A stretch of DNA of 64,000 nt from Microbacterium marinum (GTDB lineage Bacteria; Actinomycetota; Actinomycetes; Actinomycetales; Microbacteriaceae), in assembly GCF_014204835.1 (NCBI RefSeq), contig NZ_JACHMD010000001.1, forward strand, positions 868,001-932,000. Direction: 5' to 3'. Below are positions 16,401 through 51,662 of this stretch, in pieces; the first letter of the stretch is position 1; the number at the start of each line of letters is the position of its first letter. The position numbers and the translations under genes are program-made. The notes beneath the pieces were generated by a model. That model was given only the letters and a program-made list of their open reading frames with translations, did no database searches and was not told the origin of the DNA.

Positions 16401-17996
16401 CGCTTGAGCGCAGCTCAGACCGGCACCGACGGAAAGTGGGCGGCGCGCGGCCTGCCTGCAGGGACGTACCTGGTGTCGTTCGAGACGGCCTGGGAGAGCC
16501 CGCTGATCGGCGAGTGGTGGAACGACACGCTCGATCGTGCGAAAGCCGCCCCGATCAAGGTCGCCGCCGGCGCGACCATCTCGACGGTGAACGCCAAACT
16601 CGCGAAGGGCGCCTCCCTCTCGGGCACGGTGACCTCCGCGTCCGGACCGTTGAAGACGGCACGCGTGATGACGTACCGGAAGACCGCCGACGGATGGACG
16701 TACGGGAAGGACACGGTCACCGATGCACAGGGTCGCTACCTGATCGAGGGTCTGCTGCCTGGGACGTACGCGGTCCGCTTCGACGGGCCGGACGGTCAGA
16801 ACCTGGTGCGGGAGTGGTGGAACGACAAGCCCACTCGCGCCGCCGCCGACACGATCAGCCTGACTGGTGCGACCGCCAAGACGAAGGTCGACGCGAAGCT
16901 CTCCACGGGCGCGACCATCTCCGGCACGGTGACCGCGCCTGCGGGTACGAGCCTCGGCTGGGCGTCCGTTTCCGCGCTGCGGAAACTGAGCAGCGGATGG
17001 GAGCAGGTCGGCTACGGGTACGTGGAGGAAAACGGCTCGTATTCCATCGCCGGGCTCGGTGCCGGCACGTACACGCTCAAATTCCAGGGCGGCGTGCCGT
17101 CGTATACCTCCGAGTGGTGGAAGGACAAGATCACCGAGGCGACGGCTACGACCTTCACGGTCACGGCGGGGAAGGCGCACACCGGCTTCGACGCCACCCT
17201 CGCCACGCCGATCGCCGCGTCTCGTCCCTCGCTCACCGGCACTCTGAAAGTCGGTTCGCCTCTCAAGATCACCCCCGGGACGTGGCAGAAGGGTGCGGCG
17301 CTCACCTATCGCTGGTGGGTGAACGGCGAGCTCGTCCCGGGCGCCACCTCAGCCACCTACACTCCCGCCGGAACCTCCGCCGGCAAGTGGATCGCCGGCG
17401 AGGTCACCGGCTCGCTTGCAGGCTACGGGACCGTCAACTGGTTCACGACTGAGCGCGGACCCATAGCCAACGGCACGCTGACCGCCCCGACCCCGACGAT
17501 CAGCGGAACGCCGGTCATCGGCTCCACGCTCACCGCGAAGGCGGGGACGTGGACGAAGGGAACGAAGCTCGCGTACCAGTGGTTCGCGAAGGGCAAGGCG
17601 ATCTCGGGTGCGACGAAGTCGACCTACAAGGTCACCTCGGGTGTGGCCGACAAGACCATCACGGTCCGCGTCACCGGATCGCTCACCGGATACACCACGG
17701 CGTCGAAGACGTCGAAGGCGACCGCCGCCGTGTTGAAGACGGCGACGCCGAAGATCAGCGGCACGGCCAAGGTCGGATCAACGCTCACCGCGAAGCCCGG
17801 CACCTGGACGAGCAAGACGACCTTCGCGTACCAGTGGTATGCGAACGGCAAGGCGATCTCGAAGGCGACGAAGGTCACCTACAAGATCCCGAAGTCGCTG
17901 GCCGGCAAGAAGATCACGGTCAAGGTCACCGGAAAGAAGTCCGGCTACGCCTCGGCGGCGAAGACTTCGGCGGCAACAGGTTCCATCAAGCGCTGA
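13428..17996 (+). CDS. Giant secreted cell-surface repeat protein 1
   Basis: 1522 residues. A signal peptide (AVLAPQAAVAE cleavage region) and an acidic Asp/Glu/Pro linker come first. Eleven repeats of 90-100 residues follow (about 144-1260), each shaped like a carboxypeptidase-regulatory/Cna-B beta sandwich. They open with SISGTV-type strands, pass through PAGTYTL, carry EWW(N/D)D and close with GIDATLAKGA-like sequence. Three Ig-like modules finish the protein (TLTAKPGTWT, FAYQWYANGK). There is no LPXTG or C-terminal helix; the basic end KKSGYASAAKTSAATGSIKR may bind the wall electrostatically. ATG 13428 is chosen by alignment with its paralogue (MRARR). Probably an adhesin or stalk. Confidence 0.88.
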   Translation: MRARRSVYLRGLAALAIWSVAVTGAVLAPQAAVAETPTPDVSAQTVTVGEDGSVVVDATTGAADIDNSAAPDATIEETVPGEGDGDPVASDEDPSAPSVDAPESPSTPPANEDDATPDEVVVVEEPRGDDAPQRAGPQVAGETGISGTVTDTSGAPIEGAEVLLYPGSENDGYYTSAYTEDDGSYRIDWLEPGSYTVLVIAPDGVNLQRTWFGGVTGQADAETIELADGAHRSGIDVTLTAGARISGTVKTDKGAAVAGADVRVYEWRESSDGPRWEWVDSVSSGASGAFDFVGLPGGTYAVEVTPLDEQNLIGEWWRDAATPDAAEPIVLGDGDSATDIHMKVALGARLSGKVTDTKNAPVANASVEVYRYIPEQEWWDWEKQVTTAADGTFTVRSLPAGTYTLRFRAPTGVNLVPQYWGGSQTQSDATPIEVGAGGTVTNLSVKLQSGSQITGRILTAGGAAISGSVDVYKVVTEDDWSYNNWVDIVSTDNTGAYKVVGLPAGDYKLQFSSDEDGYATEWWDDEALERNADIITLASGATRTGVTARLSAAASISGTVLDAEGNPLEWASVNVYLVTPEGREQIVSGSTREDGTYTVGRLPAGTYAVEVPKPWDSDALGEWWSDKPTFETADRITLAAGAARTKVDFTLSTGASISGRITDDEGAPVSLAQVTLYRWSVDVENDSSYWDSIEWGEADDDGRYAFRGLERGTYTVQFRAPEGGNLLSEYWNDVAQNDDATAIDVDRGDAITDIDAVLSTGGSITGRVTGTDDAPIADIEVWVSEYDGGESSRSVITADDGSWAVNGLTPGTYRVYFDAPASTSLIDEWWDDAREYSDATSIVVEAGAAVTGIDAALAVGGSISGTVRSASGVVAGVQVEVSAKTADGFLDYRGSTLTDGTGRYTFGGLEPGNYVVSFTTDSSDNLVPEWWNNVTRSADATAIAITGATARTGIDATLAKGATLSGIVTGPDGKPVRDVWINLETSDGKWTRLSAAQTGTDGKWAARGLPAGTYLVSFETAWESPLIGEWWNDTLDRAKAAPIKVAAGATISTVNAKLAKGASLSGTVTSASGPLKTARVMTYRKTADGWTYGKDTVTDAQGRYLIEGLLPGTYAVRFDGPDGQNLVREWWNDKPTRAAADTISLTGATAKTKVDAKLSTGATISGTVTAPAGTSLGWASVSALRKLSSGWEQVGYGYVEENGSYSIAGLGAGTYTLKFQGGVPSYTSEWWKDKITEATATTFTVTAGKAHTGFDATLATPIAASRPSLTGTLKVGSPLKITPGTWQKGAALTYRWWVNGELVPGATSATYTPAGTSAGKWIAGEVTGSLAGYGTVNWFTTERGPIANGTLTAPTPTISGTPVIGSTLTAKAGTWTKGTKLAYQWFAKGKAISGATKSTYKVTSGVADKTITVRVTGSLTGYTTASKTSKATAAVLKTATPKISGTAKVGSTLTAKPGTWTSKTTFAYQWYANGKAISKATKVTYKIPKSLAGKKITVKVTGKKSGYASAAKTSAATGSIKR

Positions 17997-18003
17997 CCGA
18001 GAT

Positions 18004-18043
18004 CCCCTGACACCGCAGAAGCCCCCATCTCCGGTGTCAGGGG
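18004..18043. terminator. Terminator after surface protein 1
   Basis: Twelve-base perfect stem CCCCTGACACCG / CGGTGTCAGGGG. The same hairpin follows surface protein 2 at 24357-24396. Confidence 0.7.
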
Positions 18044-18115
18044 GTCAGCACAGGAGGCCGCGTCACACCGTCGGCGCACTCCAGCTGAGCGACTCGATGT
18101 CGGAACTGTCCGGGC

Positions 18116-18228
18116 TCAGCTCGCGGCGAGCGACAGCTTCGGCGGGTTCGGACCCTTCGGGGCCTTCACGATCACGCCGACATCGACGCGCCCGCCGGGA
18201 GTCAGGTTGCGAGGTGATGGTCATCGTC
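18116..18228 (-). pseudogene. Remnant of the GH5 cellulase 3' end
   Basis: 18116-18209 closely matches 24467-24560, the last codons and stop of the cellulase gene. At 18210 the match jumps: 19 bases (18210-18228) are identical to 24755-24773, also inside the cellulase gene. So this is a copy of the cellulase 3' end carrying a 194-base internal deletion, followed directly by the duplicated promoter of surface protein 2. It is a scar of tandem duplication and cannot encode a protein. Confidence 0.8.
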
Positions 18229-18240
18229 CGCCGTTCGGCG

Positions 18241-18335
18241 CAACCTTGCGTTGAATCCGTTGACGCGCGGTCAACGGCGGTCGCGGTGCCGTGTGACCGC
18301 GGAGTGGCGCTGGACGCGTTGCGTCTGCCATGCTC
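18241..18335 (+). promoter_or_regulatory. Conserved upstream block, copy 2
   Basis: Second copy of the 95-base block (8 differences from 13264-13358). The GTTGAC-GCGCG-GTCAAC inverted repeat (18259-18275) is unchanged. Confidence 0.65.
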
Positions 18336-18342
18336 AGTCTCA

Positions 18343-18413
18343 GAGCCCCCTGGGGTGGGGGCTCGGGGGATGAGCGGGCGCTTGCGCCCGCGAACATTCG
18401 GGCGGAGAGCCCG
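18343..18413 (+). promoter_or_regulatory. Structured mRNA leader, three hairpins (copy 2)
   Basis: Hairpin a: GAGCCCCC / GGGGGCTC, loop TGGGGT. Hairpin b: GCGGGCG / CGCCCGC, loop CTTG. Hairpin c: CGGGC / GCCCG. GGGGAGG precedes the start. Pairing in a and b is kept although bases differ from copy 1. Confidence 0.5.
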
Positions 18414-18430
18414 ATGCTGGGGAGGCTTCG

Positions 18431-21400
18431 ATGCGCGCACGTCGCACCGTCTTGTCGCGATGGATCGCGACCACCACGATCTGGGCAATTGCCGCCGCCG
18501 GCATGGTGCTCGCACCGCAGGCCGCCGTCGCCGCGACTCCCGACACGTCGGACACGTCCGTGTCGATGACCGTCGACACCGACGGCACTGTCGTGATGGA
18601 TGCCGAGGCGGGTGACGAGGCTGAGGTCGAGGTGTCCGCGCCGGGCGAGGTCGAGGTCGAGGATGCTGCGCCGGGCGAGGGCGAGGAAGCCGCGCCGGAG
18701 CCGGCGCCGACCCCGAGCGAGAGTGTGGCGGAAGAGGTCGCACCGTTGCCCGCCCCGACACCGTCCGAAACGGAGATCGCCGATCCCGCAGAAGACGTGG
18801 CGCCGACGACGGACCCGAGCATCGATGACGCGCCGACGCGTGCCGGACCCGACGCTCGCGTCATGGCGTCGGACAGCACCGGGAGTATCTCGGGTGTCGT
18901 CCTCGACCCCGACGGCAACCCGGTCGCGGATGTGTACGTGGCACTGTACGTCGGCGATGACGAGTGGGACAGCTGGGGCACGTACACGTCCGAATCCGGA
19001 GTGTTCACGTTCACGGACCTCTACGCCGGGACGTACGTGGTCGGTGCCTCCGCCGCGTGGGACAGCGACTACTTCGACGTTTGGTCGGGCGGTGCGGCGA
19101 ACCGATCGGATGCAGAGCCTCTCGACGTTGCTCCGGGCGCCACCGTCAGCGACGTCACCTTGCAGTTCACCCGCTCCGCGGTCATCGCGGGCACCGTCAC
19201 CGACGACCATGGCGCACCGGTCCCTGACGCATCCGTCGACCTGTACCGCTGGGACGCGGAATGGGAGGGCTGGTGGGACCAGGTTGACCGCCGCTCGACC
19301 GACAGCGCCGGCGCGTTCCGGTTCGCGCGGCTCGAGCCTGGCGAGTACACGCTGCGGACGTCGACGGACGCCGCGATCGGGCTGCAGACCGAGTGGTGGG
19401 ACGGTGCCGCCCGCAAAGCGGATGCCACGCGCATCGTCGTGGAAGGTGTTGAGACGCACGACGGCCTCGTCGTCTCGCTCGTCCCCGGCGCCTCCCTGAG
19501 CGGCACGGTCACCGCGCCCGCAGGTATGTCTGCCGAGTCGGACATCTCCGTGTACGTCCACGATGGCGAGTCCTGGGAGCACGCGGCATCCACGTGGTCG
19601 GAGGATGGCACCTACCGAATCGGCGGGTTGCCCGCTGGGGAGTACCGCGTCGTCGCGCAGCCGTACGACGGGCGCCTGCTCACCCGCTGGTGGGACGGTG
19701 CAACCACCCGTGAGGATGCGACGAGCATCGACCTCGCATCGACCGACACCGTCACCGGCATCGACATCGCCCTCCCTCGCGGCGCGAGCATCGCCGGCAC
19801 CGTGACGAACCAATCGGGCACCGCGGCAGCGAACGTGCGCGTCTCGGCCCTGGTCGAGCGCGATGCGGACAGCGAGTCACCCTGGTGGGAATCGGTCGCG
19901 TCTGCGTGGACCGCTGAAGACGGCACGTACGTCCTCACCGGCCTCGAGCCCGGTACGTACACCCTGCGGTTTACCCCTGATGACGACGTCAACCTCCTGC
20001 AGGAGTGGTGGGACGACGCGAGCAGTGAAACGGATGCCGCCACCTTCTCCGTGCATGCGGGCGCGACGCTCACCGGCTACGACGCCGCGCTCCGCCGCGG
20101 TGCATCGATCGCGGGCACCGTCAAGACCGCCGCGGGCGCGCCTGTCGCGGCATCCGTCACCCTCTACCGTGTCGTCACCGACGATGACGGCACGTACCAG
20201 AACTCGGTGCGGTGGCTTTCCACGGACGAAACCGGTGCGTTCTCGGCGGCAGGTCTCGCAGCTGGTGACTACACCCTGCGGATCCAACCCGAGGATGCGG
20301 CGTACGCGACGCAGTGGTGGGACGGCGAGAGCTTCTCGCACACGGCCGAGACGTTCACGCTCGCCGCGGAAGGAACCCGCACGGGACTTGCGGTCCGCGT
20401 CGTCGCAGCGGCATCCATCTCGGGTGTCGTGACCGGTCCGGGAGGTACGCCGATCGAAGGCGCGTCGGTGAGCGCATCGATCTCCGGCGGAGACTGGTAT
20501 GACACGGTCGCATCGGCCGAGACCGACGCCGATGGTCGGTACACGCTTACCGGCCTTCCGCCTGGTTCCTACGCCGTCTACGCGGAATCTTCCGCGACTG
20601 ACCACATCGGTGAGTGGTGGACGGATGCCACTTCCTTCGAGACCGCGACCAAGGTGCCGCTCACTGCCGGCGCGGCGAAGACGGGCGTTGACATGCGGCT
20701 CGCGCAGGGCGGGCGCATCGAGGGTGTCGTCTCGGATGCAGATGGCCCCATCGCGGACGCGTACGTCCGACTGTACGAGTGGCGTTCCGGCGAATGGCAG
20801 CGGACGCAGAGCCGATGGAGCGACGAGAGCGGCACCTACGCGTTCACGTCGGTCCCGGCCGGCACGTACACCCTGCGGTTCACCGACGAGGGCGGCCGCG
20901 GCCTCGCCCCCGAATGGTGGGACGACGCCGAGTCCGAGGCCGACGCGGAGCGGATCGAGGTCTCGCCGGGATCGCGCGTGACCGACGTCGACGCAACGCT
21001 CGCGCCCGGCGCCTCGTTGAGCGGTCGCGTGCTCGACCCGACCGGCGCGGGCGTTGCCGGTGCGACGGTCAGGGCGACCTGGGACGCGCCGGAGGGTTGG
21101 ACCGAGAGCGAGACGACGACCACCGACGACACCGGTGCGTGGACGTTCAGGGGGCTGGCATCGGGGGAGTACACCCTCTCGTTCACCGCGCCGGCTGAAG
21201 CCAGCCTGATCTCCGAGTGGTGGTCGGATGCCGCAACGCGCGATGACGCGACGCCGATCGCCCTCGCCCGTGGTGAAGCCGTCACCGGGCTCGATGCGCG
21301 CCTGGCGAAGGGGGCGTCGATCGCCGGTAGGGTGACCGGACCCGGTGTGGCCGACAACGTCGCGGTGCAGCTGTACCGCCAGGACGAGCGCTTTCCGTCG

Positions 21401-24349
21401 TGGGTGGCGGAGGTGCGAACCGATGCCGAAGGCCGCTACCTGTTCGGTGGCCTCACAGCCGGGACCTACTCGATGGAGTTCGTCCCCGACTCGGACGTCA
21501 ATCTCGTGTCGGCGTGGTCGGGTGGCGCGCCGACATCCGATGACGCCGCCACCATCACGGTCGGTGCGATCGAGTCGGTAACCGGCCGCGACATTCGCCT
21601 CGTCGCCGGCGCGACGCTCAGCGGCACGCTCACCGGTCCCGGTGGCGTCCCTATTCTGGGGAGGGTCAGCGTCGAGAGCGACGATCGGTACCGGTCCACG
21701 TGGACCGCCGACGACGGCACCTGGACGGTCACGGGTCTTGCAGCGGATGACTACCTCGTGCAGTTCCGTGCAGACTACGGCGTGAACCTCGTCAGCGAGT
21801 GGTGGGAGAACGCCGGAACCCGCGAAACCGCGACCGTGGTGCCGCTGACGGGTGGCGCGACTCGAGTCCTCAACGCGAGCCTCGTCACCGGTGCGACGAT
21901 CTCGGGCACGGTGACCAACGCCGCCGGCAACCCGATCGAAGACGCCTTCGTAGAGGTGTACGCGCGGGTCGATGGGTTGCTGCAGTACGTCAGTAACACC
22001 GAGACTGCCGCAGACGGCAGTTACGTCCTCGCCGGATTGCCCGCGGGCACCTACCTTGTGAGCTTCTCGGGCGAGTACCTGCAGAACTATGTCTCCGAGT
22101 GGTGGGACGACGCTGCGACGGATGCCACATCGACCGCCATCACGCTCGCGAGCGGCGCATCGCTCGCGGGCGTGGACGCCGCGCTTGCGGTTGGTGCCGC
22201 CATATCTGGCACGTTGCTTCGCGATGGCGGAGGGACGCTTGAGGACGGCTGGGTTGAGGCCTACCGTCGCGAAGGCGACCGCTGGGTTTTCGCGGGGTCC
22301 GCTTCGCTCGACGAGACGGGGAGCTACTTGATCAACGGCCTGCCAGCCGGCACGTACACGCTGCAGTTCAGCGGGTATGTGACTGAGCACGTCTGGGAGT
22401 GGTGGGACGACCAGCCCAACCTGGAGACCGCGAACTCGTTCGCGCTCACTGCGGGAGCGTCGCGCACAGGTGTTGATGCGCAGCTGGCTGCACCGCTCGC
22501 GTCCGCGACGCCGACGATTGCCGGCACCCCGCAGGTTGGTGCGACGCTCACCCTGCGCCCCGGCACCTGGCAGAGCGGCGCAACGCTGCAGTATCGCTGG
22601 TACGCCGACGATGACGAGATTGTCGGTGCCACGGCGCTCACATTCGTGCCGACCTCGGCGCACGCCGGGAAGCGCATCTCGGCGTCGGTCACCGGCGCAC
22701 TCGCGGGCTACGCCTCGGTGACGCGTTGGACGGAGTACTCCGAAGCGGTCGCAGGTGGCGTGCTGACTGCACCCGTTCCGACGATCTCGGGGACGGTTGC
22801 GGTTGGATCGACGTTGACGGCAAAGCCGGGCACGTGGACAGAGGGTACGGCGCTGACCTACCAGTGGTCGGTCGGTGGATCGTCGGTGGCTGGTGCCACG
22901 AGCGCGACGTTCACGATCCCGGCATCGGCGGTCGGTAAGACGATCACGGTCACGGTGTCGGGTTCGCTGGCGGGGTACGCCTCGGTGTCGAAGACGTCGG
23001 CTGCGACGGCGGCTGTGCCGCTGCAGGTGCTGACGGCGCCGACGCCGACGATCAGCGGCACGGTTGAGGTCGGCTCGACCTTGACGGCAAAGCCGGGCAC
23101 GTGGACAGAGGGTACGGCGCTGACCTATCAGTGGTCGGTTGCCGGCACTGCGGTGTCGGGTGCGACGTCTGCGACGTTCACGGTCCCGGCATCCGCCGTG
23201 GGCAAGACGATCACCGTCACCGTGACGGGGTCGCTGGCGGGATACGCCTCAGTGTCGAAGACGTCGGCTGCGACGGCGGCTGTGCCGCTGCAGGTGCTCA
23301 CCGCACCGACCCCGACGATCTCGGGCACGGTCGAGGTCGGCTCGACGCTGACGGCAACGCCGGGTACATGGACAGAGGGCGCGGTGCTGACCTACGAATG
23401 GTCGGTTGCGGATGCTACGGTGTCGGGTGCGACGTCGGCGACGTTCGTCGTTCCGGCATCCGCGGTGGGGAAGACGATCACCGTCACCGTGACGGGGTCG
23501 CTCGCGGGATACGCCTCGGTGTCGAAGACGTCGGCTGCGACGGCGGCTGTGCCGCTGCAGGCCCTTACCGCCCCGACCCCGACGATTTCGGGCACCGTAA
23601 AGGTCGGTTCAACGCTGACCGCAAAACCGGGCACGTGGACTACAGGCACGACGCTGAAGTATCAGTGGTCGGTTGCCGGCACCGCGGTGGCGGGTGCGAC
23701 GTCCGCGACGTTCACCGTCCCGGCATCCTCGGTCGGTAAGACGATCACGGTCACCGTGTCGGGTTCGCTCGACGGGTACGCCTCGGCGTCGAAGACCTCC
23801 GCTGCGACGGCCGCCGTGCCGCTGCAGGCGCTGACCGCCCCGACCCCGACGATCAGCGGAACCCCGGTCATCGGCTCCACACTCACGGCCAAACCCGGAA
23901 CGTGGACGAAGGGGACGAAACTCGCCTACCAGTGGCTCGCCGGTGGGAAGGCGATCTCGGGTGCGACGAAGTCCACCTACAAGGTCACCTCCGGTGCCGC
24001 CAACAAGACCATCACCGTCCGCGTCACCGGGTCGCTCACCGGCTACACGACGACGTCCAAGACGTCGAAGGCGACCGCCGCGGTGTTGAAGACGGCGACG
24101 CCGAAGATCAGCGGCACGGCCAAGGTCGGCTCGACGCTCACGGCGAAGCCCGGCACCTGGACGAGCAAGACGACGTTCGCGTACCAGTGGTACGCGAACG
24201 GCAAGGCGATCTCGAAGGCGACCAAGGTCACGTACAAGATCCCGAAGTCGCTGGCAGGCAAGAAGATCACGGTCAAGGTCACCGGCAAGAAGTCCGGCTA
24301 CGCCTCGGCTGCGAAGACTTCGGCGGCAACAGGTTCCATCAAGCGCTGA
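18431..24349 (+). CDS. Giant secreted cell-surface repeat protein 2
   Basis: 1972 residues, paralogue of surface protein 1. It starts with a signal peptide (MVLAPQAAVAAT) and an acidic linker. Twelve Cna-B/carboxypeptidase-regulatory-like repeats follow (about 152-1355), most ending in an EWWDD box. Seven Ig-like modules (about 1357-1972) complete it, four of them nearly identical at DNA level. The last two modules and the stop region are almost base-for-base the same as in surface protein 1, pointing to recent duplication or gene conversion. No sortase signal. The GH5 cellulase converging on it suggests, but does not prove, a role in contact with plant or polysaccharide surfaces. Confidence 0.88.
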   Translation: MRARRTVLSRWIATTTIWAIAAAGMVLAPQAAVAATPDTSDTSVSMTVDTDGTVVMDAEAGDEAEVEVSAPGEVEVEDAAPGEGEEAAPEPAPTPSESVAEEVAPLPAPTPSETEIADPAEDVAPTTDPSIDDAPTRAGPDARVMASDSTGSISGVVLDPDGNPVADVYVALYVGDDEWDSWGTYTSESGVFTFTDLYAGTYVVGASAAWDSDYFDVWSGGAANRSDAEPLDVAPGATVSDVTLQFTRSAVIAGTVTDDHGAPVPDASVDLYRWDAEWEGWWDQVDRRSTDSAGAFRFARLEPGEYTLRTSTDAAIGLQTEWWDGAARKADATRIVVEGVETHDGLVVSLVPGASLSGTVTAPAGMSAESDISVYVHDGESWEHAASTWSEDGTYRIGGLPAGEYRVVAQPYDGRLLTRWWDGATTREDATSIDLASTDTVTGIDIALPRGASIAGTVTNQSGTAAANVRVSALVERDADSESPWWESVASAWTAEDGTYVLTGLEPGTYTLRFTPDDDVNLLQEWWDDASSETDAATFSVHAGATLTGYDAALRRGASIAGTVKTAAGAPVAASVTLYRVVTDDDGTYQNSVRWLSTDETGAFSAAGLAAGDYTLRIQPEDAAYATQWWDGESFSHTAETFTLAAEGTRTGLAVRVVAAASISGVVTGPGGTPIEGASVSASISGGDWYDTVASAETDADGRYTLTGLPPGSYAVYAESSATDHIGEWWTDATSFETATKVPLTAGAAKTGVDMRLAQGGRIEGVVSDADGPIADAYVRLYEWRSGEWQRTQSRWSDESGTYAFTSVPAGTYTLRFTDEGGRGLAPEWWDDAESEADAERIEVSPGSRVTDVDATLAPGASLSGRVLDPTGAGVAGATVRATWDAPEGWTESETTTTDDTGAWTFRGLASGEYTLSFTAPAEASLISEWWSDAATRDDATPIALARGEAVTGLDARLAKGASIAGRVTGPGVADNVAVQLYRQDERFPSWVAEVRTDAEGRYLFGGLTAGTYSMEFVPDSDVNLVSAWSGGAPTSDDAATITVGAIESVTGRDIRLVAGATLSGTLTGPGGVPILGRVSVESDDRYRSTWTADDGTWTVTGLAADDYLVQFRADYGVNLVSEWWENAGTRETATVVPLTGGATRVLNASLVTGATISGTVTNAAGNPIEDAFVEVYARVDGLLQYVSNTETAADGSYVLAGLPAGTYLVSFSGEYLQNYVSEWWDDAATDATSTAITLASGASLAGVDAALAVGAAISGTLLRDGGGTLEDGWVEAYRREGDRWVFAGSASLDETGSYLINGLPAGTYTLQFSGYVTEHVWEWWDDQPNLETANSFALTAGASRTGVDAQLAAPLASATPTIAGTPQVGATLTLRPGTWQSGATLQYRWYADDDEIVGATALTFVPTSAHAGKRISASVTGALAGYASVTRWTEYSEAVAGGVLTAPVPTISGTVAVGSTLTAKPGTWTEGTALTYQWSVGGSSVAGATSATFTIPASAVGKTITVTVSGSLAGYASVSKTSAATAAVPLQVLTAPTPTISGTVEVGSTLTAKPGTWTEGTALTYQWSVAGTAVSGATSATFTVPASAVGKTITVTVTGSLAGYASVSKTSAATAAVPLQVLTAPTPTISGTVEVGSTLTATPGTWTEGAVLTYEWSVADATVSGATSATFVVPASAVGKTITVTVTGSLAGYASVSKTSAATAAVPLQALTAPTPTISGTVKVGSTLTAKPGTWTTGTTLKYQWSVAGTAVAGATSATFTVPASSVGKTITVTVSGSLDGYASASKTSAATAAVPLQALTAPTPTISGTPVIGSTLTAKPGTWTKGTKLAYQWLAGGKAISGATKSTYKVTSGAANKTITVRVTGSLTGYTTTSKTSKATAAVLKTATPKISGTAKVGSTLTAKPGTWTSKTTFAYQWYANGKAISKATKVTYKIPKSLAGKKITVKVTGKKSGYASAAKTSAATGSIKR
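22759..23830 (+). repeat. Tandem 264-base repeats encoding Ig-like modules
   Basis: Four consecutive units of about 264-269 bases (starting near 22759, 23028, 23292 and 23560), each 88 or so codons from LTAPTPTISGTV to ATAAVPLQ. Long stretches are identical between units, so recombination could add or remove modules in frame. Confidence 0.8.
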
Positions 24350-24356
24350 CCGAGAT

Positions 24357-24396
24357 CCCCTGACACCGCAGACGCCCCCATCTCCGGTGTCAGGGG
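24357..24396. terminator. Terminator between surface protein 2 and cellulase
   Basis: CCCCTGACACCG / CGGTGTCAGGGG, a duplicate of the hairpin at 18004-18043. It lies between convergent genes. Confidence 0.7.
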
Positions 24397-24466
24397 GTCA
24401 GCGCACGTGCCGCTTCACGCCGTCGGCGCGTACCAGCTGAGCGACTCGATGGAGCGACCGTGCGGG

Positions 24467-26047
24467 TCAGCTCGCGGCGAGCGACAGCTTCGGCGGGTTC
24501 GGACCCTTCGGAGCTTTCACGATCACGCCGACATCGACGCGCCCGCCGGGAGTCAGGTTGTCGAGACCCCAGTTCTTTCCGGCGCAAGTCACCTTCGCCG
24601 TCGTCTTCGCGGCATTCGTGAGCGTGCAGTCCATGCCCCACGCGCTGTCGATCGACGTGGCACCAGGAGACACCCACGACGCGCGCCATGATTTCGTCGC
24701 AGCCTTCGCCGGCGCCTTCACGGTGAGACCCACCTGATACGCACCCGGCCACGCCGAGGTGATGGTCATCGTCGCTGACGTGCCATTCGACGACGATGAC
24801 GAGGACTTCCCGACCGAGGGATCGGGCGACGGCTGCGCGCTCGACGACGGCTGCGGGGTCGGGGTGGGCTGCGGCGGTGTCGTCGGCTTCGGCGCCGGGG
24901 GATACGCGACCTTCTTCGGCGTGAGGATCGGCTTCAGCGCGGTGAGCTTCGCCTTCTGGCGCGTGTACCAGTCGTCCTTCAGCAGGCCGCCGGTGTCACC
25001 GCTGTTCGGGTTGAACGACCAGTACGCCCAGCTCATCCGCTTCGTCTTGATGTACGACGTGAGCTTCGCGAGCCACTTCTTGTCGCTCGACGTCTCGAGC
25101 TTGGTGCCGAACTCGCCGATGAACACCGGAGCGATGTTCTTCGTGGCGATGTACCCCCAGTTGCGCTCCCAGATGGCGGTGAGGTTGTTCGGATAGTTCT
25201 TCGCGGAGAACCACGGCTGGTATGCGACCGAGAGCGGGTACTCGTGCGGCGAGTACACGACCCGGTTCTTCACCGTGAGCGACACCGGCTTCTTCGCGAC
25301 ACCGCGCAGGCCGCCGCCCCACCACGTGACCGAGCCGTCCTGCTCGTACTGGACGCCCTCGACGATGATCAGCAGACGCGCGTTCACCTTGTGGATCGCG
25401 TTCCCGGCACGCGTCGCCGCGGCACGCCAATCGCGGGCGCGCTCGCCGCAGCCCCAGCACGCCTTCCCTCGCGGCTCGTTGTGCAGGTCGACCCCGATGA
25501 CCGTCGCATTCTTCTGGTAGCGCTTCGCGAGCTTCTTCCAATCCGCGATCCAGCGGGCCTCCGGGTACTGCTTCGTGTACCAGAGCTCGGACTGCGCCGC
25601 CGAATCGGGACGGTGGCGGTCGAGGATGATCCGGATGCCGTACTTGCGGGCGCTCGCGACAACGGCATCCATCACCTGGAGCGGCGACTTGCCCGCGAGC
25701 GTCGGGTTGATCGCGGTGTTGATCGAGTTCGACGTGCGCTTTGCGAGGCACTCGTTGGAGAACGGCAGGCGGATCGTGTTGAAGCCCATGCCGGCGATCT
25801 GCGCCATGCCCTGGTCGACAGTGATCGACCACAAGCCGTGCGGGGCGCAGGTGTCGGTCTCCATGCCGAACCACGACGTCGCCTTGATCGTGAAGGTCGC
25901 GCCGGTCGTGGCCGACACGATCTTCGAGCCTTTGGTCTTCAACCAGGCGGGGGCGGCCGCTTCGGCGGCGGGCGCGGGGGAGGCGACCACGCTGACGGTC
26001 ACCGCGAGCAGCAGGGCCGCAAAGCCCGCCAGCAGTCGTCGCCACAT
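24467..26047 (-). CDS. Secreted GH5 endoglucanase (cellulase) with C-terminal cellulose-binding-like domain
   Basis: 526 residues from ATG 26047 (GGGGGAAT upstream). A signal peptide (LLAGFAALLLAVTVSVV) leads into a GH5 catalytic domain. Visible are FNTIRLPFSNE, RIILDRHRP, the acid/base motif DLHNEPRG, SPHEYPL and the nucleophile motif FIGEFGTK. A Pro/Thr/Ser linker follows, then about 95 residues resembling a family 2 carbohydrate-binding module (SATMTITSAWPGAYQVGLTV, SWRASWVSPGATSI). It should hydrolyse beta-1,4-glucans outside the cell. Its 3' end is duplicated in decayed form at 18116-18228. Confidence 0.9.
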   Translation of the reverse strand: MWRRLLAGFAALLLAVTVSVVASPAPAAEAAAPAWLKTKGSKIVSATTGATFTIKATSWFGMETDTCAPHGLWSITVDQGMAQIAGMGFNTIRLPFSNECLAKRTSNSINTAINPTLAGKSPLQVMDAVVASARKYGIRIILDRHRPDSAAQSELWYTKQYPEARWIADWKKLAKRYQKNATVIGVDLHNEPRGKACWGCGERARDWRAAATRAGNAIHKVNARLLIIVEGVQYEQDGSVTWWGGGLRGVAKKPVSLTVKNRVVYSPHEYPLSVAYQPWFSAKNYPNNLTAIWERNWGYIATKNIAPVFIGEFGTKLETSSDKKWLAKLTSYIKTKRMSWAYWSFNPNSGDTGGLLKDDWYTRQKAKLTALKPILTPKKVAYPPAPKPTTPPQPTPTPQPSSSAQPSPDPSVGKSSSSSSNGTSATMTITSAWPGAYQVGLTVKAPAKAATKSWRASWVSPGATSIDSAWGMDCTLTNAAKTTAKVTCAGKNWGLDNLTPGGRVDVGVIVKAPKGPNPPKLSLAAS

Positions 26048-41755: not shown

Positions 41756-41815
41756 TTCAGGTGGCAGTTCTTGTCGCTGTGGATGCCGCGTAGCGGCGTG
41801 TCCCGCCACCTGAGC
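41756..41815 (+). repeat. Palindromic repeat A, copy 1
   Basis: Outer arms TTCAGGTGGC and GCCACCTGAG enclose a weaker inner pair (CGCTGTG / CGTAGCG) and a GGATGCC core. It starts 15 bases beyond the nuclease stop codon. Confidence 0.85.
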
Positions 41816-41829
41816 GGGGCGCGTGGACC

Positions 41830-42822
41830 TCAGGCGCGTCGCGCGAGCGCAGCGCGCACCATCCGCACGACGCGGCGATCCCGCCCCCGGACGTGCGCCG
41901 ATGTGGCCCGCACGACGTCCCACCCCAGCGCTGTCAGGGCGGCCGCGCGCTCGATGTCGCGCGCCCACTGCGCGGCATCCGTCCGGTGATGATCGCCCTC
42001 GGCCTCGATGACGATCCGTCGCTCGGGATAGGCGCAGTCCGCGATCGCGACGAGGCGACCGCGGCTGTCTCGGATCTCGACATCGAGCTCGGGCTCGGGG
42101 AGGTGTGCATCGACCAGCGCCAGCCGCAGGTCGGTCTCAAGGGGCGACATCGCGCCGACTCGGATCGCTGCGAGCGCGGCACGAAGCTTCGGTGCGCCCG
42201 CGCGCCTGCCGGCATCCGCAGCTCGGACGAGCGCCTCGATGGTCGTCAGCTGCGCGTCCGGCCGGGGGTGGCCGTGGCTGTCCCGAGGGATGCGAACGAA
42301 CGCGTCGCCGAGGCGGACGAGTTGTCGAATGTCGAGCTCGCCGCCGAGCATCGCCCACGTGGTCGCCGGTGTCGTCACGGGGAGTCCGTCGAGGGCGACG
42401 ACGTCGGCGAGTGCAGGGAGAGCCTTCCGACCGCGGATGCCGCGCCGGCGAGGCGCGCGCGCCGGTGCGTGAACCGCCACGTCCAGGTCGCGCAGGTCGC
42501 GGATCGGGTGCCCCCACAGCGCCGCCGCGGTCGCGCCGCAGAAGAACGCGTGCGGCTCGATCACGCACGCGTACTGGCGAGCGCGACGCCACGCCTCCGT
42601 GCGGCGGGCGTCGTCGAGCGGGTACGCACTGTCCGGTGGCGCGCATGCTGCCGACGCCGGTGCGCGCATCCCCCGGAACGGCGCCGTGAGGTCATCCGCG
42701 CGGAGGCGACGCGGCCGCACGCCGGCGTCGAGCGCGTCGGCGCACGCGAACGGCGGGCAGAGCCCAGGCGGGAGCGGGGCAGGGGAGCGCGGCATCCGCT
42801 CATGATCCGCGCTCTGCGACAT
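41830..42822 (-). CDS. DUF559/VSR-like nuclease domain protein, enclosed by A repeats
   Basis: About 330 residues. The C-terminal 100 form a PD-(D/E)XK very-short-patch-repair-like fold: SPLETDLRLALVDAHLPEPE, DSRGRLVAIADCAYPE, IVIEAEGDHHRTDAAQWARD and LTALGWDVVRATSAHV. Catalytic acids are probably the Asp of ADCAYPE and the Glu of IEAEGDHH. The N-terminal 200 resemble the AbiEi-like regulators often fused to DUF559 (FFCGATAAALWGHPI, LDVAVHAP). Start uncertain: ATG at 42822 or 42795. Palindrome A lies 15 bases past the stop, and three more copies lie upstream of the start. Confidence 0.75.
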   Translation of the reverse strand: MSQSADHERMPRSPAPLPPGLCPPFACADALDAGVRPRRLRADDLTAPFRGMRAPASAACAPPDSAYPLDDARRTEAWRRARQYACVIEPHAFFCGATAAALWGHPIRDLRDLDVAVHAPARAPRRRGIRGRKALPALADVVALDGLPVTTPATTWAMLGGELDIRQLVRLGDAFVRIPRDSHGHPRPDAQLTTIEALVRAADAGRRAGAPKLRAALAAIRVGAMSPLETDLRLALVDAHLPEPELDVEIRDSRGRLVAIADCAYPERRIVIEAEGDHHRTDAAQWARDIERAAALTALGWDVVRATSAHVRGRDRRVVRMVRAALARRA

Positions 42823-42893
42823 CCGCTGACCAGGCGCTGCACCGAAGGGGACAGTCCGTGCCAATGCGCGTCGGGGGAGAAGGCGCTCATCGC

Positions 42894-42954
42894 GCTCAGG
42901 GGGCAGTTCTCGTCGCTACGGATGCCACGTAGCGGCGTGTCGGGCCACCTGAAC
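42894..42954 (+). repeat. Palindromic repeat A, copy 2
   Basis: CTCAGGGGGCAG ... CGCTACG-GATGCCA-CGTAGCG ... GGCCACCTGAAC. The inner stem is perfect; the outer has one or two changes. Confidence 0.85.
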
Positions 42955-42978
42955 CGGGAGGGCGTGAGGCGCGCTCGC

Positions 42979-43040
42979 GTTCAGGTGGCAGTTCTTGTCG
43001 CTACGGTTGCCACGAAGCGGGGTGTCCTGCCACCTGGAGC
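42979..43040 (+). repeat. Palindromic repeat A, copy 3
   Basis: GTTCAGGTGGCAG ... CTGCCACCTGGAG, inner CGCTACG / CGAAGCG. 24 bases after copy 2, same orientation. Confidence 0.85.
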
Positions 43041-43088
43041 GCCAGCAGAGCCTGCCGCCTGAACGGGGCAGGCGTACGGCGCAGTCGC

Positions 43089-43150
43089 GTTCAGGTGGCA
43101 GCTTTTGTCGCTACGGATGCCACGTAACGGCGTGTCCTGCCACCTGAAGC
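43089..43150 (+). repeat. Palindromic repeat A, copy 4
   Basis: GTTCAGGTGGCAG ... CTGCCACCTGAAG, near-perfect outer stem; inner CGCTACG / CGTAACG. Confidence 0.85.
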
Positions 43151-47472: not shown

Positions 47473-49235
<1,763 letters not shown>

Positions 49236-49318
49236 GCCGCGGCGGCGGCCGCGGCGCGGCATCCGCTCGACGTCTGCTGACCGCGAGCGTCGCTGCTCGC
49301 CGTCGCGGCCTGCCCCGC

Positions 49319-49386
49319 GGAGGTGATCCGCGCCCGGGAGGGTCGTGTGGCGAAATCGGCCCTCCCGAGTGCAGATCTCCTCCCGG
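49319..49386 (+). repeat. Palindromic repeat B, copy 1
   Basis: Outer arms GGAGGTGATC / GATCTCCTCC, inner arms CGGGAGG / CCTCCCG. It ends about 45 bases beyond the nuclease stop. Confidence 0.8.
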
Positions 49387-49431
49387 GTGCCGCCCGGGCG
49401 CTGGCCGCGCCTGAACGCTGGCCGTGCCCGC

Positions 49432-50265
49432 TCAGCGAGCGCGGTGGAGTCCTCTCGCGATCGCGCCGGTGATGAGGTCTTGCACCGACGGCCACATCTC
49501 CATCACCTGCGCGTAGGTGACCCGGATGACGTGGTACCCGTGCAGCATCAGACGCGCGTCATGCTCGATGTCCGCGGCACGCTGCGCACCGACATGATGG
49601 CCGCCGTCGATCTGGATGACGAGTCGATCACCGATCAACAGGTCGACGGGGCGCCCGAGCAACCAGACCTGTTGCCGCATCGACATCCGCAACCAGCGGA
49701 GTCGGCGCGGGAGGAGCGTTTCGAGTCCGGAGTCCGAGAAGAGGGATGCCGCCTCGCACACCTCGCGGGCGGAGGGAGGCAGCGCAAGGGAGCTCATGAG
49801 CTCGCGATCGGTCTTGCCGAGCCGGAGCGCCGATTCCCACACTGCGAGCGCGAGTTCGCGAGGCTGGCAGCGCGCGACGGCGACGAGCGTGTTCTCCACC
49901 GAATCAACGAGCGCGTCGGGGTGACGCGGCGTGGGCGGCGCCGCCCAATGGACGACGGCACCCGAGACCGCGACGTGGCCCGCGTGCGCGGGTGCTGCGA
50001 CATGCCGCGAGTCGTCGCGCATCACCCACAGCCCGTGTCGCTCGGCCGCCGTGACACACGTGAGGACGACGCCCGCGCGTGCCGCGGCGACGACATCGGG
50101 GTCAGCGTCGGGGACGGCCACCCATCCGCGGCGGAGGCGCACCGCGAGCCCGCGCCGCACGGCGGCTTCGATCCGATGGCGGCTCGCTCCGGCGTCGATG
50201 AGACTCGTGGTGCGCGCAACACCACCGCGGCGACGAATCTCGAGGCAGAGGGTGCGTTCGTCCAT
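49432..50265 (-). CDS. AbiEi-like/DUF559 nuclease domain protein, enclosed by inverted B repeats
   Basis: 277 residues from ATG 50265. The N-terminus is a winged-helix AbiEi-like antitoxin domain (LIDAGASRHRIEAAVRRGLA, VRLRRGWVAVPDAD, LTCVTAAERHGLWV). The C-terminal 110 are a DUF559 PD-(D/E)XK nuclease: SGLETLLPRRLRWLRMSMRQ, LGRPVDLLIGDRLVIQIDGG, HHVGAQRAADIEHDARLMLH, GYHVIRVTYAQVMEMW. Probable catalytic acids are the Glu of SGLET and the Asp residues of PVDLLI and QIDGG. It lies between guaB and guaB3 on the opposite strand, with palindrome B in inverted copies on both sides. An upstream start at 50316 is possible. Confidence 0.78.
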   Translation of the reverse strand: MDERTLCLEIRRRGGVARTTSLIDAGASRHRIEAAVRRGLAVRLRRGWVAVPDADPDVVAAARAGVVLTCVTAAERHGLWVMRDDSRHVAAPAHAGHVAVSGAVVHWAAPPTPRHPDALVDSVENTLVAVARCQPRELALAVWESALRLGKTDRELMSSLALPPSAREVCEAASLFSDSGLETLLPRRLRWLRMSMRQQVWLLGRPVDLLIGDRLVIQIDGGHHVGAQRAADIEHDARLMLHGYHVIRVTYAQVMEMWPSVQDLITGAIARGLHRAR

Positions 50266-50380
50266 TCCCCGAGGGTCGCGCCCGCCGGGCGGCGGGCGGC
50301 GTCGCTCCCGGCACATTGGGGTGTCTTCCGCGCGAACGGCGCCCGTGGAGAAGTCGTCGTCGCGGCGGCCGCCTGCTGAG

Positions 50381-50446
50381 GGGAGGAGAACTGCGCTCGG
50401 GAGGATGGATGCCGCGCAGCGGCCCTCCCGGGCGCCGATCACCTCC
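50381..50446 (-). repeat. Palindromic repeat B, copy 2 (inverted)
   Basis: Read on the minus strand it matches copy 1 over its arms and flanks (GGAGGTGATC, GCGCCCGGGAGGG, CCTCCCGAG, TCTCCTCCC), while the centre differs and contains GGCATCC. Confidence 0.8.
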
Positions 50447-50522
50447 GGCACGCCGGTGCCCGCCACGCGGCACGCCGTGCCCGTCGCGCGGGACCCCCGG
50501 GCGCGGCGCGGGAGCCCACCGG

Positions 50523-50528
50523 TAGGCT
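50523..50528 (+). promoter_or_regulatory. -10 box, leaderless promoter of guaB3
   Basis: TAGGCT, six bases, then GTG 50535. Confidence 0.55.
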
Positions 50529-50534
50529 GGGGGC

Positions 50535-51662
50535 GTGAGCATGGAAATCGAGCTCGGTCGCGCCAAGCGCGCCCGCCGGGCCTACACGTTCGACGACATC
50601 GCGGTCGTGCCCTCCCGGCGCACGCGCAACCCCGAGGATGTCTCGACGGCGTGGACGATCGACGCGTACAGCTTCGGCATCCCGGTGCTCGGCGCCCCGA
50701 TGGACTCGGTCATGAGTCCGCGCACCGCCATCATGCTCGGCCAGCTCGGCGGCCTCGGCGTGCTCGACCTCGAGGGCCTCTGGACCCGCTACGACGACCC
50801 CGAGCCCCTCCTCGCCGAGATCGCCGCCCTGCCCCACGACGGCGCGACCCGTCGCATGCAGGAGCTGTACTCCGCACCGATCAAGCCGGAGCTCGTGCGC
50901 GACCGTCTCGCCGAGGTCCGCGCCGCCGGTGTCACCGTGGCGGGCGCCCTCACACCGCAGCGCACGCAGGACCTCTACGAGACCGTCGTCGCCGCCGGCG
51001 TCGACCTCTTCGTCATCCGCGGCACGACCGTCTCGGCCGAGCACGTCTCGAGCGAGACCGAGCCGCTGAACCTCAAGAAGTTCATCTACGACCTCGATGT
51101 CCCCGTCATCGTGGGCGGCGCCTCCACGTACACCGCGGCGCTCCACCTCATGCGCACGGGCGCGGCGGGTGTCCTCGTCGGGTTCGGCGGGGGAGCGGCA
51201 TCCACCACCCGCGCCACCCTCGGTCTCCACGCCCCGATGGCGACCGCCGTCGCCGACGTCGCCGGTGCGCGTCGCGACTACCTTGACGAGTCGGGCGGCC
51301 GGTACGTCCACGTCATCGCCGACGGCGGAGTGGGCACCTCGGGTGACATGGTCAAGGCGCTCGCCATGGGGGCGGATGCCGTCATGCTCGGCGTCGCGCT
51401 CGCTCGCGCGACCGACGCTCCCGGCCGCGGTTTCCACTGGGGACCCGAGGCGCACCACCCGAAGCTCCCGCGAGGCACCCGCGTCGAGACGGGCCAGGTC
51501 GCTCCGCTCGAGGAGATCCTCTACGGGCCGGCCCCGGTCGCCGACGGCACCGCGAACCTGATCGGCGCGCTCCGCAAGTCGATGGCCACGACCGGGTACT
51601 CCGACCTCAAGGAGTTCCAGCGCGTCGAGGTCGTCGTCGCGCCGTACGCCTCGTCTCGCTGA
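50535..51662 (+). CDS. guaB3: GuaB3 family IMP dehydrogenase-related protein
   Basis: 375 residues, IMPDH-like barrel without CBS domains: RRAYTFDDIAVVPSRRTRNP, LGAPMDSVMSPRTAIMLGQL, VHVIADGGVGTSGDMVKALA. The loop that bears the catalytic cysteine in IMPDH reads GFGGGAASTTRATLG here, with no Cys. So classical IMPDH catalysis is unlikely; the family's activity in actinobacteria is unclear. First gene of a run with SURF1, DUF3817 and guaA (stop overlaps the next ATG by one base). Confidence 0.9.
   Translation: MSMEIELGRAKRARRAYTFDDIAVVPSRRTRNPEDVSTAWTIDAYSFGIPVLGAPMDSVMSPRTAIMLGQLGGLGVLDLEGLWTRYDDPEPLLAEIAALPHDGATRRMQELYSAPIKPELVRDRLAEVRAAGVTVAGALTPQRTQDLYETVVAAGVDLFVIRGTTVSAEHVSSETEPLNLKKFIYDLDVPVIVGGASTYTAALHLMRTGAAGVLVGFGGGAASTTRATLGLHAPMATAVADVAGARRDYLDESGGRYVHVIADGGVGTSGDMVKALAMGADAVMLGVALARATDAPGRGFHWGPEAHHPKLPRGTRVETGQVAPLEEILYGPAPVADGTANLIGALRKSMATTGYSDLKEFQRVEVVVAPYASSR

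Follow-up and report, generated by a model that had tools for sequence, protein, structure and literature searches.

Nested palindromes flanking AbiEi-DUF559 nuclease genes in Microbacterium: a candidate REP-like system built around a Vsr-like nuclease

Results

The B element in the guaB-guaB3 interval

The window, i.e. the whole stretch of 64,000 nucleotides of Microbacterium marinum DNA analyzed, lies in a single-contig genome of 3.12 Mb (G000). Between guaB (stop at 49235) and guaB3 (start at 50535), both IMPDH-family genes according to Pfam, resides a gene on the reverse strand (49432..50265; ATG start, stop at 49432-49434) encoding a putative AbiEi-DUF559 (Vsr-like) nuclease of 277 aa. 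Two nested palindromes flank this gene. B1 (49319..49384, forward) lies between the 3' ends of guaB and of the nuclease gene; B2 (50381..50446, reverse) is found 116-181 bp upstream of the nuclease ATG and 88 bp before guaB3. Each copy carries four half-sites, GGAGG at 49319-49323 and 49337-49341 and CCTCC at 49361-49365 and 49379-49383 in B1, GGAGG at 50382-50386 and 50400-50404 and CCTCC at 50424-50428 and 50442-50446 in B2, with the same 18-24-18 bp spacing in both. B1 and B2 make up the longest inverted repeat that a repeat search detects in the window (49318-49384 and 50381-50447, 67 nt, 81% complementary). The two 450-bp flanks of the gene align locally with a score of 72, the maximum in 1000 first-order shuffles being 50, and a score as high is reached by 0.2% of 1500 random 834-bp spans devoid of DUF559.

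B has no other clear copy in its own genome, blastn with B1 detecting only B1 and B2 at E < 0.1. Two further hits appear with a covariance model built on related palindromes: the palindrome of another element of the same genome (L001), and a weak solo copy at 427156 (L319, G000:C1:427156), a nested palindrome scoring 29 bits with model R1, apparently intergenic, and possibly left behind by an element since lost. Scanning of the 49200-50600 interval yielded neither terminator- nor promoter-like patterns, nor any GC stem followed by a T run; two Rfam matches were discarded, both being far below gathering scores. Neighbours scanned around B with Pfam (permease, guaB, guaB3, SURF1) include neither a nucleotidyltransferase toxin gene nor a cytosine methyltransferase gene.

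The guaB-guaB3 interval was monitored in 20 relatives and measured in 19 of them (L097-L116), the contig of the twentieth ending too early. Spacer length ranges from 69 bp, in G085, to 7793 bp, and most of the 19 hold varied cargo, which makes the interval a variable region in the genus. In G015, whose guaB3 is 95% identical, the spacer spans 7.6 kb and a B-like gene was not seen. An ortholog of B, 68% identical and residing at the same place in G008 (L100), is flanked by its own version of the palindrome (CGGAGG). The earlier note had described B1 and B2 as inverted nested palindromes enclosing a DUF559 gene, a description borne out by repeat search, half-site spacing and shuffle test alike. 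Two ways in which it could have been wrong are at odds with the data, the G008 ortholog having repeats of its own at this place, and the B repeats being neither spread genome-wide, by blastn and covariance model, nor terminator-like. Its proposal that an insertion splits guaB from guaB3 holds in part: the pair is indeed separated, by varied cargo, in most relatives, with no base-precise empty site detected.

Family A and other repeats of the window

A second, more divergent DUF559 gene lies about 6.6 kb from B in the 41756-43148 region, along with four copies of another palindrome. The gene (41833..42864, reverse strand; 344 aa as listed from a TTG) encodes a DUF559/MTES_1575-like protein; by self-blastn, one palindrome is found on one side (41756..41819) and three on the other (42890-42953, 42980-43041 and 43085-43148), all on the forward strand. 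The commonest octamer of the window is CGGCATCC, present in 96 copies on both strands. Many direct repeats, with spacings near 300, 267 and 255 nt, crowd the region from about 13800 to 24500, which apparently encodes repeat-domain proteins.

The B protein

Pfam detects DUF559 in the B protein (E 8e-6) and AbiEi_4 below cut-off, otherwise MTES_1575 only. The structural model predicts an AbiEi fold at residues 1-174, complete, and a Vsr-like fold at residues 178-273. The predicted DNA-binding part (49744..50265, reverse strand, residues 1-174) starts with a winged helix at about residues 1-54, and includes a candidate specificity loop (49966..50004, reverse strand, residues 88-100) set between predicted strands 87-90 and 103-106. 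The putative nuclease domain (49435..49734, reverse strand, residues 178-277) has I-Bth0305I and Vsr as nearest folds in the model, and the predicted fold is of the Vsr/EDxHD type, with conserved acidic and histidine residues. E182, D208, Q218, D220, H224, H235 and D236 are invariant across 56 close homologues. At position 182 E is kept in 80/81 loci of the set described below; it is replaced by K in the G008 ortholog, which may be catalytically dead and retains its flanking palindromes all the same. PADLOC matches are restricted to AbiEi models. Close relatives, mostly from Microbacterium when named, carry annotations as DUF559, AbiEi or very-short-patch-repair endonuclease only.

Distribution in Microbacterium and in its order

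PF04480 genes were found at seven places in the own genome. Repeats reside on both sides at six of the seven and differ in sequence at each; the remaining locus (L005) has only a 26-nt direct repeat. B-like proteins were detected in 95/99 Microbacterium genomes at E 1e-10, and in 45/119 genomes from the order at E 1e-8, six of these belonging to the genus.

Flanks were compared in a set of 83 loci, made up by the seven own loci, the 69 top-ranking non-own places of the search in Microbacterium genomes, and seven guaB-site loci, five of which were included because a DUF559 gene lay there; no locus was selected for palindromes. One locus (L141) was left out before counting because of a short flank, and another (L038, the same gene as L100) after the swapped-pair test. 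Upstream and downstream flanks are alike above the 99th percentile of 1500 swapped pairs at 49/82 loci (one gene being counted twice), and matching flank repeats exceed the 99th percentile of 1500 random spans at 59/81, the other 22 being below threshold. Palindrome scores above the 95th percentile of the far-flank background were found in both flanks at 44/81 loci and in at least one at 73/81, although some of these hits are terminators and far flanks contain some palindromes as well. A 7-mer common to both flanks and repeated at least six times was found at 58/81 loci, vs. 13/77 far-flank controls and 208/1620 shuffles. Outside the genus, 10/25 loci pass the 99th percentile of 500 swapped pairs, L161, the weakest, by a small margin. 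As judged from sequence, B belongs to a family of enzyme-plus-palindrome units residing in Microbacterium and its order.

Further variation was observed at single loci. In another family of the order, a near-perfect palindrome of 72 nt, more AT-rich than Microbacterium palindromes, flanks a distant DUF559 gene on both sides (L175). At the rpsN site of G001 (L138) two tandem palindromes lie upstream of the gene, and none was seen in the 450 bp downstream.

Palindrome structure

Each arm is laid out as X-spacer-X, a short unit X recurring at a distance of 18 or 19 nt in 150/169 arms with a repeat; X matches at 6/6 positions in 101/214 arms, vs. 12/214 shuffled arms. X is GGAGG at B, and ACAGG, CTCAG, GCAAG, CGAGAACAGG and others elsewhere. 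An alignment of 23 GGAGG-type palindromes shows the two GGAGG blocks and a GAT..GC motif to be invariant or nearly so, partly by construction, several having been found with a query or pattern containing these letters; the GTAG tetranucleotide is absent from their consensus. Arms pair in 98% of the cells, the 5-nt spacer between inner and outer arms in 61%, which is above its slid controls. Because the spacer pairs far less than the arms, half-sites for a protein are favoured over a continuous hairpin, a less probable reading that the excess over slid controls would fit. At some loci the palindrome picker selected the wrong hairpin (L113, L139, and terminators at the rpsN site).

Each gene has its own palindrome

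The two palindromes of one locus have a median identity of 81% (41 loci), vs. 62% for 300 random pairs. When the same site, defined by both flanks being shared, is compared in different species, identity within the locus exceeds identity between ortholog palindromes in 65/71 pairs, and in 58/60 once the mis-picked L113 and L139 are removed; both copies of a locus thus change together.

Palindrome likeness tracks protein likeness (r 0.30; maximum of 500 permutations 0.154). In a window scan of 78 loci, controlled for overall protein likeness and using the same definition of site, residues 88-99 give the best correlation (r 0.24, null maximum 0.172). Since some both-flank site classes share one flank (26 two-flank classes, 19 when merged), the scan was repeated with pairs from different merged classes (2667 pairs, 19 classes). 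The top-ranking windows again start at residues 89 (89-100, r 0.238) and 88 (r 0.235), the null maximum being 0.181. An r of 0.24 is modest. The recognition helix of the winged helix, considered as a reader of X, falls outside the best covarying windows. HAG-type loops are associated with X of the GAGG type (28, 6, 7 and 34 loci; Fisher p 1e-8), with the proviso that the split was picked after seeing the loop-X table and loci are non-independent (13, 5, 5 and 13 by site). By eye, two loci with no flank in common (L155 and L147) both feature the loop PGSSG.KP and X = CGCAG.

In short, X differs between loci, agrees within a locus, and covaries with loop 88-100. That each nuclease has its own cognate palindrome, as suggested in the earlier note, is supported by the locus-specific X and by identity within loci, and the covariation between nuclease and palindrome for which it proposed a test was found at residues 88-100, also between unlinked places.

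Genes mostly appear to stay in place, palindromes vary in number and position

Gene names valS, rpsN, purM, ctaB, hup and fbiC were read from translations and are presumptive. In the compared set, all pairs of proteins at least 68% identical share a flank; the genes hence look mostly inherited in place. Orientation may differ within a site, as in L043 vs. other rpsN-site loci, and at the guaB site too. The gene turned up in 12/30 loci examined at the rpsN site, one contig being too short to tell. Among close relatives this site is empty in G005, hosts a solo palindrome in G066 and G014, and the full unit in G060 and G001. No DUF559 gene was found beside the solo palindromes in 5.7 kb (G066) and 4.5 kb (G014). 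Junctions of empty, solo and full sites are too diverged to be read, and yield no base-precise empty allele. At another site of G066 a solo palindrome lies between convergent genes, and the matching flanks are 10 bp apart in G083. Neither a target-site duplication nor a base-precise junction was found at the rpsN or the G066/G083 site. A phage or plasmid origin was considered and set aside, phage matches being absent and plasmid matches amounting to three, weak and partial, all to Tsukamurella.

The palindrome of the G050 element, used as query, detected nested palindromes elsewhere in G050, G032, G087, G051, G037 and G018, with no DUF559 gene found within 1.5 kb of these dispersed copies; a match in G039 was rejected, not being a nested palindrome of this kind. 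An exact two-arm pattern occurs in 6/99 genomes, its reversed control in 0/99. Model R1 finds matches at E 0.01 in 66/99 genomes, 17 of which have 20 to 51 matches, on both strands, among at most 52 candidates scored per genome; the richest genomes host at least about 25 palindromes. In the 54 genomes with a locus of the test set, R1 matches listed have a median of 24 in the 18 genomes with an R1-type element, vs. 4.5 in the 36 others, R1-type meaning 40 bits or more at a DUF559 gene, a cut chosen by the authors. After subtraction of copies at fetched loci the medians among matches listed are 19 and 3.5, with a p value of 1.7e-5 that ignores phylogeny.

Dispersed copies match the elements of their own genome to a variable extent. 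Ranked among 81 elements, that of the own genome is in the top 3 for 15/15 copies in G050 (which supplied the query), G032, G087, G008 and G037, and ranks 19 or lower for copies in G051 and G019. For seven further copies it ranks 1, 1, 3, 7, 13, 27 and 33, and an eighth, in G049, adjoins another DUF559 gene outside the set. The matching covers fetched DUF559 genes only, and the original set contained none from G018 or G066; elements fetched later from G066 (five B-like), G051 and G018 show no clear match to the solo copies.

Palindromes are also found within a coding sequence. One nested palindrome resides in frame in the linker of an FbiC-like two-domain protein (L306, G053:C68:46380), whose radical-SAM/CofH nature was checked by Pfam. 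Two in-frame copies each are found in the same linker in M. enclense NIO-1002 (L336) and Microbacterium sp. Leaf151 (L335), none in M. hydrothermale and two MAGs, and a right-arm remnant in M. testaceum NS220. R1 finds copies in 3/22 fbiC loci searched, out of 81. The fbiC copies are the clearest sign of the gain, or loss, of a palindrome at a readable place.

Discussion

A putative palindrome-spreading system

The architecture of the units, their generality, the locus-specific X, its covariation with the loop, and the solo, dispersed and coding-sequence copies are all read directly from the DNA. On these grounds the family would be a palindrome-spreading system resembling REPtrons, in which a nuclease takes the place of the HuH transposase; this reading, in which the protein is supposed to bind and cut palindromes and to drive their spread, is given a probability of roughly 0.56. 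The AbiEi-like part would bind each nested palindrome at its four half-sites, residues from about 88 to 100 reading the variable unit X (GGAGG at B), and the Vsr/I-Bth0305I-like domain would nick or cut at the palindrome. Joining AbiEi-type binding to a Vsr-like nuclease would yield a protein able to cut its own binding sites. Most likely, the break made at a palindrome or a related site would be repaired by copying another palindrome, a process which would preserve the likeness of copies within a locus as X and the loop drift jointly, and could expand arrays and seed new copies as well. The gene would mostly stay put, and the palindromes would bracket it, form local arrays, stand alone and disperse, as REPs do.

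Some data do not fit easily. The own genome has no strong third copy of B1/B2 (one solo of 29 bits), dispersed copies match own-genome elements unevenly, the G008 ortholog may not cut because of K182 and yet retains its palindromes, and a Vsr-like nuclease alone cannot join DNA. B is a quiet member of the family, and evidence for movement comes from other relatives.

Alternative explanations

The protein could be an autoregulator only, which represses its own gene via the upstream palindrome, in the manner of AbiEi and Rv2827c. According to the cited part of PMC7319586, both bind inverted repeats in their own promoters, AbiEi two 23-bp repeats and Rv2827c two pairs within -1 to -131. The complete AbiEi fold of the model and the location of B2 ahead of the ATG suit this role, as does the persistence of palindromes in G008 next to a protein lacking the motif glutamate. 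The downstream palindrome would then be a second operator or a transcription boundary, dispersed copies would be a regulon or relics, and the nuclease would act elsewhere or not at all. An operator, however, needs no matched copies downstream, in arrays, alone with no gene found near, or inside fbiC, and autoregulation as the sole function appears rather unlikely. Autoregulation via the upstream palindrome is compatible with the spread of palindromes, and the two may coexist.

Movement of the gene and both palindromes together, as a transposon with palindromic ends, would account for opposite orientations at the same site (rpsN and guaB sites) and for the patchy occurrence of the gene at the rpsN site. 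It is improbable, given that in the compared set closely similar genes always share a flank and look mostly inherited in place, and that mobile-element matches are confined to the partial plasmid ones. A device for defence or homing, whose nuclease cuts foreign or allelic DNA bearing X while the palindromes mark self or titrate the enzyme, is suggested by the predicted nuclease fold, nearest to I-Bth0305I and Vsr, and by the fast change of X and loop, a hint of conflict; it is very improbable, PADLOC recognizing only AbiEi models, the neighbours being housekeeping genes, and the palindromes being kept, not disrupted, beside the gene. Ordinary hairpins, i.e. terminators or chance palindromes, are expected in a GC-rich genome and do occur in far flanks and, as terminators, at the rpsN site, but B is neither genome-wide nor terminator-like, the flanks beat random spans and shuffles, and identity matched on both sides together with covariation with the protein already contradicts this reading, which can be dismissed.

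Relation to known systems

REPtrons (TnpAREP/RAYT and REPs) are the closest parallel. In the cited parts of PMC8266576 and PMC3733652 they feature one gene bracketed by cognate palindromes, covariation of enzyme and palindrome, and a resident rather than mobile gene, as the B family does, and also dispersed palindromes. REPtron-type dispersal is seen here in several relatives, with mixed own-genome matches, and is absent for B in its own genome. The REPtron enzyme, which cuts and joins palindromes as single strands, is a HuH transposase with a catalytic tyrosine, the B enzyme an AbiEi-Vsr-like nuclease, unrelated by Pfam and model; the GTAG tag beside the palindrome is missing from the aligned GGAGG-type palindromes; B-family palindromes span 65-70 bp and have four half-sites, unlike REPs; and copies number at least tens per genome here, hundreds to thousands in some genomes for REPs, as stated in the same parts of those sources. 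The enzyme being unrelated and the GTAG tag lacking, the B family is not a REPtron member. The cited part of PMC3733652 links REP-type palindromes to HuH enzymes, and describes one REP superfamily as having no known enzyme; Rickettsia palindromic elements are named there as well.

The B family shares with the AbiEi/Rv2827c repressors the two-domain fold and the paired inverted repeats near the own gene described in that part of PMC7319586, and differs in having a fused nuclease domain and a matched downstream palindrome, and in lacking an adjacent nucleotidyltransferase toxin gene. The fold predicted for residues 178-273 is that of Vsr and the homing endonuclease I-Bth0305I; B carries an AbiEi module in addition, has no methyltransferase among the neighbours scanned, and lies outside any intron or intein. 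Like IS200/IS605, B is a short unit with palindromic ends, but it lacks a HuH transposase, and in the compared set its gene is mostly inherited in place. Rickettsia palindromic elements insert in frame into proteins, and in-frame palindromes are likewise seen here in fbiC; here, a candidate cognate enzyme exists. A search of the open-access literature found nothing linking DUF559 to palindromes or REPs.

One may go further, albeit at somewhat less than even odds, and regard the family as a new class of systems, in which a Vsr-like nuclease with an AbiEi-type loop (residues 88-100) would encode the sequence of its palindrome, private enzyme-palindrome pairs would co-evolve within one genus, and palindromes would spread by break-and-copy repair, even in frame within proteins of the host. 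If the proposed reading is true, a nuclease-based system, common in Microbacterium and present in its order, would be a second way to build a REP-type system, and the covariation of loop and palindrome would provide, in dozens of naturally occurring enzyme-site pairs, the material for reading and directly testing a recognition code.
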